Shown here: one piece after another, positions 47,444 through 51,001 of the stretch
How positions within the stretch are numbered: position 1 is the first letter of the stretch
How the letters are laid out: the number at the start of each line of letters is the position of its first letter
NCBI RefSeq assembly: GCF_003710805.1
Contig: NZ_RHHB01000006.1
Location: 1-64,000, forward strand
Origin: Agromyces tardus
GTDB taxonomy: Bacteria; Actinomycetota; Actinomycetes; Actinomycetales; Microbacteriaceae
Length of the DNA stretch: 64,000 nucleotides
Reading direction: 5' to 3'
The notes under the pieces: model-generated
The model's input: only the letters and a program-made list of their open reading frames with translations
The model's database searches: none
Told to the model about the DNA's origin: nothing
Translations under genes and position numbers: made by a program

Positions 47444-48776
47444 TCAGGCGAGCGTGATGTCCGGGAGCACCCACGTCTTGTCGCGAAGGGCTGCCGTGGG
47501 TCGGTAGAAGCGGAAGAGCACTTCGAACTCGGCATCAGGCGCCGTGGGGATCCAGTTGCTCTCGGCGCCCTGGGGGGCCGTGGGCGCGAAGGTCAGGGTG
47601 ATGGTTCCGTCGGGGTTCGACTGCAGACCGGGGGTCACAGATGACCTGCTGGACCAGGGCGTGTGCCGGATGAGTGTGTGCCGGGTGCGGTCGAACGCGG
47701 TTGCCGACCAGAACGCCTCGACGGGGGCGCCGGCGGGAACCGTGAGCGTGTACGTGTTCGCTCCGCGAAGGGGCGCGCCCGCGGCATCCTGGATGCTCAT
47801 GAGGGAGAACTGGCCGGCGCCGAGGTGACGGGCGGAGAAGAACCCGTAGTGGAACGGGATGGCACGGGCGTCGACCGGGTACGTCTCCGGTCCGGCGAAT
47901 CCGGTGGCGGTGGCGTCCAGGTAGTCGGGGTCGATGGGGACGGACCACCGCGCCCCCGACGCGAAGGGGGTGTTCAGCGATTCGTAGGTGTCGTCGAGCC
48001 ACTCATGAGCCTCGCTCGCAGCGCGATCGAAGATCACCTGGGTCGCCTCATCGGGTTGGATCGGCTCGCCCTTCCGGATGCCGAGCGTCCGCAGCTGATC
48101 GATCATGACGCGGTCGCGCTCGAGCCACGGCTCGCGTTGCACGTACTCGTGGAGGTATGGAGAAGAAGCGACGATCGTACGGGATTGCGGAGTCCACGAG
48201 CACTCCGGCGAGGTCGACGAACACCGTCTCCGGCGGGTCGTCCACCTCGGACAGTGGGTAGAGCCGTACCTGCCTGGCATCGGCGACTGCCGCTGCGACG
48301 TCGTCGTCGCTGCCGCTGCGCAGAAGCGCGGGCAGCAGCGCGTACACCTCGAAGGTGTCGGACGGCATGGCGATGAAGCCCTCCGGGATCGGTTCGACGT
48401 GTCCCGGGGGGCAGAATCAGGTACTTGCCTCCCCTTCCGGAATCCACGCCGGCCGGCCCGACATCCTCGATCGGTGCCTGCCATGCGTCCATCACCGAAC
48501 CGTTGATCGCGCCGCCGACGGCTGCGGGAATCTCCACACCATCGGTCCGGTCGTCGTCGTGTCGATGAACGGCATCAGGTAGACGACGTCGGGATTGGGT
48601 GTCAGCGTCTGGTTGCGCCAATCGAACAGCCGTGACCAGAATACGATCTGATTCGCCGAGGCGCCCGCCTCCTCGGCCGCTGCCGCCATGAGGCGGTAGT
48701 TCACGTACGGGATCCCCCAGATCACCGCTTCGACGGCCCGGCGGGCGACCGACTTGTCGTGCACAGTCACATCCAT
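47444..48776 (-). pseudogene. DUF1254/DUF1214 family gene broken by three frameshifts
   Basis: Family-like sequence runs through four segments in different frames. It starts with IWGIPYVNYRLMAAAAEEAG and NQTLTPNPDVVYLMPF (48776 to about 48540). A shift leads to INGSVMDAWQAPIEDVGPAG and GGKYLILPPG. A second, at the C-run 48406-48411, leads to EGFIAMPSDTFEVYALLP and AIPYDRRFF. A third, near 48150-48160, leads to QREPWLERDRVMIDQLRTLG and the DUF1214 end (stop 47444). Removing one base at each +1 site, or adding one at the first, restores the expected order. It is a true pseudogene or an assembly with indel errors. The intact family is of unclear enzymatic role. Confidence 0.8.
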
Positions 48777-48809
48777 GCCCACAACATGACGAATGCCCGG
48801 CGGTGCGGC

Positions 48810-49808
48810 TCAGGACCCCGGGCTCGCGCGGTGCTCCAGGGCTTCGATGACGGTCTCGGCGATATCGATGTCGTAGAGCCGCTCGACGCTCTGGAACCCG
48901 CCGGGGCTCTCGGCGTTGATCTCCACCACCTGGCTGCCGATCACATCGATGCCGACGAGGAACATGCCGTCCGCGACGAGCTTGTCGCCGATCGCCTCGA
49001 CGATGCCGAGCTCGGCCGCACCGACCTCGAGGGGCACCGACCGACCGCCGGTGCTGATGTTGGCGCGCGGGTCGTTGCCGGTGGGAACGCGTCGGAAGGC
49101 TGCCGGCCTCCCGTCGCGTTCGAGGATTCGGCCCTCGAGCAGGAAGATCCGGGCGTCGCCGTCCCGGGCTCCCTCGATGAACTCCTGGATGATGGCGTAG
49201 CCGTCCTGCAGGACCGCCTCCGTCATCTGCGCGAGGTTGGTCTCGTCCGGGCCCTCGATCATGAAGACGTTGCGGCCTTTTGCCCCGTAGAGCGGCTTGA
49301 CGACGCAGTGGCCGACTTCGTCGACGAACCGCTCGATCGCCTCCGGGTTCCGCGTGACCAGCGACCGTGGTCGCACCTGCTCGGGGAACTCCTCGAGGTA
49401 GAGCTTGCTGGTCGCTCGATGGAGGGTGTTCGGGTCGTTGACGACCGTCACACCGCGGTCCGCGAGCATCTGCCCGAACACCACGCCCATCGGGCTGGCC
49501 CACGGGCGCTCCTGCAGGTCGTCGATCGACTCGTTGCGCAGGAAGAGCGCATCCAGGTCGTCCATGACGATCCGCTCGGCGTCGCGCGCCTTGATCCCCT
49601 CCATGAAGCTCGCGAGGGTGTCGCCGCTCTTCCACCTCGCGGCGCGAGCCATGGCCGCGAACCGCCCGTCGCTGCTGCCGAGCTCGAGGTCGCCGACGCC
49701 GAGATACCAGGTCTCGTGCCCGCCCCTGGCTGCGGCCCGGGCGAGTCGGGTGGTCGCGTACTCGTCCACCTCGGTGGCGACGTCGTTGACCAGAAATGCG
49801 AGCCTCAT
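48810..49808 (-). CDS. Glutathione synthase-like ATP-grasp ligase
   Basis: This 332-residue ATP-grasp protein resembles prokaryotic glutathione synthases. It has an N-terminal substrate region (RLAFLVNDVATEVDEYATTR), the ATP-grasp core with HCVVKPLYGAKGRNVFMI (near 165) and Mg-binding FLVGIDVIGSQVVEINAESPGG-like C-terminus (near 290). It would join a carboxyl group to an amine using ATP. Its ATG overlaps the stop of the DUF1704 gene (ATGA), so the two are coupled. No glutamate-cysteine ligase is in the window, and actinobacteria mostly lack glutathione, so glutathione is not the assured product. Confidence 0.85.
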   Translation of the reverse strand: MRLAFLVNDVATEVDEYATTRLARAAARGGHETWYLGVGDLELGSSDGRFAAMARAARWKSGDTLASFMEGIKARDAERIVMDDLDALFLRNESIDDLQERPWASPMGVVFGQMLADRGVTVVNDPNTLHRATSKLYLEEFPEQVRPRSLVTRNPEAIERFVDEVGHCVVKPLYGAKGRNVFMIEGPDETNLAQMTEAVLQDGYAIIQEFIEGARDGDARIFLLEGRILERDGRPAAFRRVPTGNDPRANISTGGRSVPLEVGAAELGIVEAIGDKLVADGMFLVGIDVIGSQVVEINAESPGGFQSVERLYDIDIAETVIEALEHRASPGS

Positions 49809-51001
49809 GCCGCCACGTCTCCTTCGTACAGGTCGGTGACCGTCGCGCCCGCGCGCAGCCGCTCCAGGCGCTCGGAGGCGCCAGGCACGTCCAGCCAGCG
49901 TGGCCGAACCCACGGCGCGTGGAGCACCTCGCGGTCGAGCAGGTCCTGCACCAAAGGGATCTGGTCCAACGCGAGCTTGCCGACGAGCAGGACGTCGAGG
50001 CGGCTGCCCTCGGCGAGGGCGTCGAGGATGCGCGTGATCCCGCGCAGGTAGATCGCGTCCTTCACCGAACCGCCCCCGACGACGACCCGGATGGCGATGG
50101 ACCACGCGGTCCGTGCCGGAATGCGGTAGTCGGCCCGCAGCGACTCGAAGATGTCGAGGAAGCCGGCGCCGCCGAGCATCTTGCCGACCGCGACCACTCG
50201 CGCCGCGAGCACGCGCAACCGCCGCGGGTCCAACCCGCCGGTCAGGTACTCGGCGAGGACGGCGAGGCCCTCCTGGGTCTCGTCGTAGCCGGGCAGGCCG
50301 ATGGTCAGCAGCGTCAGTGGCTGCCGGGCACCGTTCTGGTAGGTGACCACGTGCGTGCCGACCTCATGGTGCAGCAACGGATCGACCCGGTCGGCGCGGA
50401 AGGCGGCGGACTCCGGGATGAGCAGGCGGCCGAACGACACCATCAGCTCGGAGATGTCGTTTCGCACCTCGACGCGGACCGGGAAGTCCGGGTACACGGC
50501 GCGATAGCGCTCGAACTCCGCACGGGCGGCGTCGGCGAACGCCCCGGCCGTGACGGTCTGGGTGCTCGGCGCCTGCGGCGGGATGGTCTCGAGCAGCTCC
50601 TCCGCGGTCGCGGCCAGCGGAGCGGCCACCGTGCCGTAGAGCTGGAGCGACCCGTAGAGGAACCGTGACGTGTCGCGGTCCTCCAACGCGGTGATCTGCC
50701 GGGCGATCTCGTCCCGCTTCGCGCGGAAGAGGGTGTGCAGCGCGGGGTCGTCGACCTTCTCGACCTCGAGGTCGTACAGGTCGCGCTGCGCCAGGTCCGG
50801 GTCGAAATCCAGCGGCCGCAGCCGCAGCGTGGGGGCCGTGCCGAAGTCGCTGCGTTCGAAGTCCGCCCACGCCTCCGCCGCGTTGAGCGGCGTGACGTTG
50901 ACAAGGAGGTTCACGCGGCGCTCGATCTCGGTGAGCCGGGCGTCGATCTCGAGCGCCGGGGCCAGCCGCTCGATCGGCGATGACATCGTTCGACCGCCCA
51001 T
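49805..51001 (-). CDS. DUF1704 protein with HExxxH motif (QEGLA, MATCAP-like carboxypeptidase fold)
   Basis: This 398-residue protein has HHEVGTHVVTY near residue 210 and the family signature DETQEGLAVLAEYL near 245. Together these mark DUF1704, called 'flavohemoglobin expression-modulating QEGLA motif protein' in annotation pipelines. Eukaryotic relatives (MATCAP/KIAA0895L) are zinc tyrosine carboxypeptidases using HExxxH and a downstream Glu. Start ATG 51001 is preferred because AGGA lies 5 nt upstream; ATG 50986 and 51067 are alternatives. It is directly coupled to the ATP-grasp ligase gene. No flavohemoglobin gene is nearby. Confidence 0.85.
   Translation of the reverse strand: MGGRTMSSPIERLAPALEIDARLTEIERRVNLLVNVTPLNAAEAWADFERSDFGTAPTLRLRPLDFDPDLAQRDLYDLEVEKVDDPALHTLFRAKRDEIARQITALEDRDTSRFLYGSLQLYGTVAAPLAATAEELLETIPPQAPSTQTVTAGAFADAARAEFERYRAVYPDFPVRVEVRNDISELMVSFGRLLIPESAAFRADRVDPLLHHEVGTHVVTYQNGARQPLTLLTIGLPGYDETQEGLAVLAEYLTGGLDPRRLRVLAARVVAVGKMLGGAGFLDIFESLRADYRIPARTAWSIAIRVVVGGGSVKDAIYLRGITRILDALAEGSRLDVLLVGKLALDQIPLVQDLLDREVLHAPWVRPRWLDVPGASERLERLRAGATVTDLYEGDVAA

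Follow-up and report, generated by a model that had tools for sequence, protein, structure and literature searches.

A DUF1704 (MATCAP-family) gene paired with a GshB-like ATP-grasp ligase gene in Agromyces tardus: an apparently minimal form of a widespread bacterial module

In the window (the whole 64,000-nucleotide stretch of Agromyces tardus DNA that was analysed), a gene for a putative metallo-enzyme of the DUF1704 family overlaps the downstream gene for a GshB-like ATP-grasp ligase. The pair belongs to a real and widespread module, of which the window holds the smallest form. What the sequences establish is the gene order and the overlap, the conserved pairing, the families of both proteins and the conservation of catalytic-type residues. 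Family knowledge suggests that the two products would catalyse amide ligation and metal-dependent C-terminal hydrolysis, and the original prediction of an add/remove pair seems plausible. The reading we prefer, held tentatively and at somewhat less than an even chance, is that the ligase of this module builds, and its hydrolase trims, a small peptide of glutamyl type or a peptide-capped metabolite other than glutathione. The ligase and the metallo-enzyme, strictly paired across many phyla, are uncharacterised as a set, and their public names (glutathione synthetase and flavohemoglobin modulator) are not supported as a shared role. They offer a bacterial system for studying the role of MATCAP-family enzymes before tubulin; for reconstitution, the two-gene form in the window is the simplest version.

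Both predicted open reading frames were located (Table 1), and the ATGA overlap that joins them was confirmed, as were the HExxxH and QEGLA motifs in the translation of the DUF1704 gene. The DUF1704 protein and the ligase would be made by translational coupling. The true start of the DUF1704 gene may be Met6 (50986) instead of 51001; the ORF of a relative (locus L028) begins at about Met6. Among 11 loci of the window clade (a count that left out L034, of the same clade), nine overlap cleanly by ATGA and L031 by GTGA; L033 is uninformative.

Table 1. Features of the gene pair, in window coordinates
Feature	Position	Strand	Remarks
DUF1704/MATCAP-family (PF08014) putative metallocarboxypeptidase, 398 aa	49805..51001	minus	translation and Pfam
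GshB-like ATP-grasp ligase (332 aa); lacks the tail found at the C terminus of most operon ligases	48810..49808	minus	
HEVGTH (HExxxH motif), residues 212-217	50351..50368	minus	
QEGLA motif, residues 243-247; E244 is the putative third metal ligand	50261..50275	minus	
Shine-Dalgarno-like GAAGGAG	49819..49825	minus	inside the end of the DUF1704 gene, just upstream of the ligase start
ATGA start/stop overlap, DUF1704 gene to ligase gene	49805..49808	minus	

The DUF1704 protein scores 312 bits against the Pfam MATCAP family (PF08014; gathering cut-off 27). Residues H212, E213, H217 and E244 do not vary across the 64 sequences of alignment A3, nor do Q243, L246 and A247 of QEGLA. Human MATCAP is its best match among solved structures: the hit is weak with a single sequence (phmmer, E 0.0021) and clear with the A3 profile (PDB 7z5g, E 3.4e-14). 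In particular, HExxxH, the downstream Glu of EGLA, and the KD..YL.G and GK stretches align with MATCAP/TMCP1 and TMCP2 (KIAA0895L, KIAA0895; PDB 7z5g), although overall similarity is low and the operonic GshB-like ligase is a feature of bacteria. These alignments predict a putative metal site whose residues are conserved and aligned with MATCAP. MATCAP scores 55.8 bits with the 64-sequence profile and 28.4 bits with a 14-sequence profile; although the profiles differ in depth, the scores point to MATCAP possibly branching with operon-class DUF1704. The N-terminal domain of the long DUF1704 proteins had no match in Pfam or among solved structures. According to excerpts of PMC10499314, human DUF1704 relatives (TMCP) trim C-terminal residues and shorten polyglutamate chains; excerpts of PMC12393276 and PMC12612596 were also consulted.

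The partner is, as predicted, a glutathione-synthase-like ATP-grasp ligase, which matches GSH-S_ATP (PF02955) at 149 bits and GSH-S_N at 29 bits. Among solved structures, E. coli GshB is its best match (E 3.2e-31), and RimK-type chains follow at E 2e-4 or weaker. The match to GshB (PDB 1gsa) covers two domains (residues 21-327) and includes common ATP-grasp residues; in the alignment, the counterparts of E. coli K125, K160, R210, D273, E281 and N283 are kept, but N199 and T288 are replaced by E and G. Several conserved operon-ligase positions also differ from E. coli GshB, including an added R101/W103 segment. Moreover, the ligase falls below the equivalog cut-offs, and indeed below all three glutathione-synthetase cut-offs (TIGR01380, 185.1 against 299.05; NF003573, 192.1 against 272; NF009110, 335.6 against 408). 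The tail-bearing ligase of L042 exceeds NF009110 (487 against 408) and lies below both equivalogs, which suggests that this NCBI subfamily largely corresponds to the operon ligase.

The DUF1704-ligase pairing goes beyond chance. Genome contigs yielded at least 539 DUF1704 relatives, only the best 80 of which were kept, so the set leans to window-like proteins; in 73 of these 80 best-scoring relatives a ligase lies within 300 bp of DUF1704, and the pairing spans at least ten phyla (as given in record titles). In the other seven, the ligase lies 0.75 and 1.3 kb downstream (L051 and L093), FGase and ligase are convergent just downstream (L047, L055, L067), the ligase is approx. 5 kb away on the other strand (L037), or no ligase was found at the locus (L090). 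PF08014 was found in 12 of 296 sampled genomes of the window's phylum, and two listed genomes of the same genus are not among the 12. A ligase accompanies DUF1704 at seven of these 12 loci; at the other five, one of them near a contig end (L019), no match was found at E 1e-3 within the 10-15 kb fetched. L034 is probably the same contig as the phylum-sample locus L005/L018. A less biased check came from a gammaproteobacterial class sample (321 genomes, 48 with PF08014, 45 loci examined), which left out G309, G323 and G327 (already in the 80-locus set) and G367 (fragmentary match); L152 and L158 are probably the same records as L097 and L095. Thirteen loci formed an operon class (303-546 bits with an in-house profile), 12 of them with a ligase; none was found within 7 kb at L149. 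The other 32 formed a solo class (102-168 bits), in which no same-strand ligase was found beside DUF1704 within flanks of only 1.5-3 kb; at L124 a ligase-like ORF lies on the opposite strand. The survey proposed with the prediction thus found the pair well outside close relatives (73/80, 7/12 and 12/13 loci), and its spread across phyla supports the view of a conserved functional unit.

The distance matrices of DUF1704 and ligase correlate (r 0.672, 84 pairs; at most 0.119 in 999 shuffles), which, with species relatedness still contained in r, argues for co-inheritance. Tandem DUF1704 and ligase copies occur in one cluster at L051, L062, L069, L092 and L146, and the ligases of L069 and L104 span two frames. 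DUF1704 matches were found in 124 plasmid records, 79 of them Sinorhizobium, and in no phage record.

Four features go beyond the original prediction: a third gene, its fusion to DUF1704, a tail on the ligase, and the solo DUF1704 branch without ligase. The third gene, FGase, resembles N-formylglutamate amidohydrolases, whose name refers to hydrolysis of N-formylglutamate, and is usually present in most bacteria with the operon. FGase-like ORFs cluster at 63 of 86 loci (80 relatives, five phylum-sample loci and the window), or 46 groups after lumping near-relatives, and some loci without FGase are cut by contig ends. One member is named by Pfam (PF05013, 65 bits). The order FGase-DUF1704-GshB appears in independent annotation of the Shinella CP069302 and Aminobacter NZ_CP062119 plasmids and, by tblastn, on pSymB of Sinorhizobium meliloti 1021 (L111). 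In the Shinella and Aminobacter operon, DUF1704 (QEGLA) is directly upstream of the ligase on the same strand, near or overlapping it, as in the window; the window differs in being without FGase, the approx. 250-aa N-terminal region of DUF1704 and the ligase tail. A separate FGase was found in nine of the 13 gammaproteobacterial operon-class loci and none in the 7.4 kb of L146. FGase and DUF1704 share one ORF at L147-L149 (gammaproteobacterial, in-house profiles) and in Photobacterium sp. DA100 (L113 5407-7392, minus strand), where a 662-aa ORF confirmed by Pfam (366 and 54 bits) adjoins the ligase.

Given the L113 arrangement, a gene pair of Photobacterium damselae is likely this operon. In excerpts of an RNA-seq study (PMC10308900), adjacent-tag genes called GshB and QEGLA are up 38.4-fold and 27.5-fold at 1% relative to 3% NaCl, RimK is up 52-fold in the same table, and the authors treat GshB as glutathione synthetase. 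Similarly, an excerpt of PMC3091676 lists VV2_1203 (COG3930) and VV2_1204 (glutathione synthetase) of Vibrio vulnificus as adjacent tags. A 'gshB' annotation next to a QEGLA gene in a transcriptome study need not point to glutathione. No paper on function was found among the open-access papers listed for the operon or the family names.

The window carries a minimal two-gene form common to one actinobacterial clade. In one FastTree tree it groups with L022, L028-L036 and L039, none of which has FGase or a tail; the members are also without the N-terminal DUF1704 region, L031 being labelled otherwise because of a mechanically assigned early start. No FGase was found in the window's own genome. 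Five ORFs flanking the window pair have no match in L028, L029 and L039, where the pair itself is kept. The window ligase ends with HRASPGS after E325. In an alignment of 94 ligases (92 operon-linked, the window and E. coli), 66 extend at least 18 residues beyond the E325 column, and 62 of the 66 end, exactly at the stop codon, in a motif of roughly F-x-N-x-x-[MLI]-A-[TMV]-L, with N at position -7 in 62 of 66 (e.g., L042 6160-7203). Many of these rows are near-relatives (ten from Pontibacter), so they do not represent 66 independent events. The idea that tail, FGase and N-terminal domain always go together was rejected: L023 and L024 keep FGase and tail without the domain, and in Sphingobacterium and Parapedobacter only the tail is missing.

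The conventional names lead to two explanations of a different kind. In the first, which we consider very unlikely, the ligase would simply make glutathione and the neighbouring peptidase would have nothing to do with it. This would agree with the NCBI family name of the ligase, with its E. coli GshB fold and ATP-site residues, and with the window's own genome, which has two GCS2 genes, one over the curated glutamate-cysteine ligase cut-off (NF010042, 535 against 427 bits); they sit on contigs C42 and C23, in line with the predicted lack of such a gene in the window. GCS2 is also present in the other window-clade genomes searched and in 23 of 45 operon-bearing genomes, so gamma-glutamyl substrates are possible there. 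Three of the remaining 22 have Glu_cys_ligase (PF04262), and neither family was found in 19 of the 45, many of them MAGs and possibly incomplete, with five named isolates among them (Sphingobacterium L066, L076 and L102, Parapedobacter L094, Marixanthomonas L104). This genome content and the missed cut-offs make glutathione synthesis unlikely as the shared role; it was rejected as the main reading, and the small-thiol option of the original prediction is weakened with it. Also against it, five of 40 genomes have a second, canonical-scoring ligase copy (238-267 bits; the copy found on the DUF1704 contig is the lower-scoring one in G323 and G327), and FGase and DUF1704 are not unrelated neighbours but conserved partners. 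A mycothiol-family search gave a best match of 272 bits (cut-off 485), and the same family matches all 14 control genomes. Least probable of all is a mainly regulatory DUF1704. It derives from the name of NCBIfam TIGR02421 (QEGLA hypothetical equivalog), 'flavohemoglobin expression-modulating', the source of which was not found in the open-access papers searched; the window protein scores 306.4 bits, below the cut-off of 338.65. The invariance of the metal-type residues and the enzymatic nature of MATCAP argue against such a role. The position of the sole globin-family gene found in the genome, on another contig (C3), also counts against it and agrees with the predicted lack of a flavohemoglobin in the window.

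A bolder idea, unlikely in our judgement and less likely than a small peptide, is a cycle on a cellular protein: the ligase would attach an amino acid to its C terminus or to a side-chain carboxylate and DUF1704 would take it off, like TTL and MATCAP on tubulin or RimK, which adds Glu to S6. The tubulin cycle likewise combines an ATP-grasp ligase (TTL) with a MATCAP-family carboxypeptidase; TTL is, however, to our knowledge not GshB-like, and the bacterial pair forms an operon with no target found near it. The ligase's far greater closeness to GshB than to RimK-type chains and the tail-less window form also count against it, and we know of no action of FGase on proteins. It gains from MATCAP being the closest solved relative of DUF1704, from the trimming activity of that family (excerpts of PMC10499314), from the conserved tail, a possible docking or substrate peptide, and from the rise of RimK with pair-like genes in P. 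damselae (PMC10308900, in part). At the loci compared, neither a conserved gene for a protein target nor one for a precursor was found near the pair. This fits a diffusible substrate, but the neighbourhood would look the same if a protein target were encoded elsewhere. It is also doubtful that the enzymes share one biosynthetic route in which the hydrolases work on other bonds than the ligase, with the carboxypeptidase freeing a carboxylate for the ligase to cap; that a ligase is co-translated with one or two hydrolases makes more sense for ordered steps, and the FGase-DUF1704 fusion is in keeping with this, but no other biosynthetic gene is conserved nearby: besides the three operon genes and ORFs judged to be shadows, no neighbour family occurs in more than seven groups at the 86 loci. 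Likewise rejected was the idea that a small substrate peptide is conserved next to the operon; when 2389 small ORFs (22-95 aa) were clustered, the only group wider than two consisted of Arg/Ser-rich frames that look like high-GC artefacts.

A ligase and a carboxypeptidase, with FGase elsewhere, working on glutamyl-type peptides would be the best fit to family chemistry, and we infer the substrate from it. In the preferred small-peptide reading, the GshB-like enzyme would form an ATP-dependent amide bond at a carboxylate and so build the peptide, the MATCAP-like metallo-enzyme would trim it from the C-terminal side, and the FGase-type amidohydrolase would be the third member in most bacteria, with the window form as the two-enzyme core. 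We guess that one and the same molecule, a small glutamyl-type peptide, is acted on by both. Against this, without some control a coupled ligase and hydrolase would only undo each other's work on a shared bond, and solo DUF1704 exists (all 32 solo-class loci and five of 12 in the phylum sample). Quite improbably, the pair could reversibly alter the C terminus of a protein and so be what corresponds in bacteria to the tyrosination/detyrosination cycle of eukaryotes, and possibly its origin; in tail-bearing lineages the ligase's own tail would enter the carboxypeptidase as substrate or tether, so that trimming controls the ligase, and the window clade would have switched to a target without a tail.

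Some neighbouring genes were recorded in passing. On the minus strand of the window, 28 bp past the ligase stop, one protein is apparently split over two frames (47444-48484 and 48492-48782); it is presumably DUF1254/DUF1214-like. L040 and L078 have in common an ORF of approx. 80 aa with conserved Cys residues, upstream of FGase and on the operon strand. At L051, approx. 2-6 kb upstream of DUF1704, three genes upstream of FGase resemble, by eye, ATP-grasp and PLP-decarboxylase types. On a Pseudoalteromonas plasmid (L112 5419-6699), a solo DUF1704 lies between betaine (bet) and arginine-succinyltransferase pathway genes.
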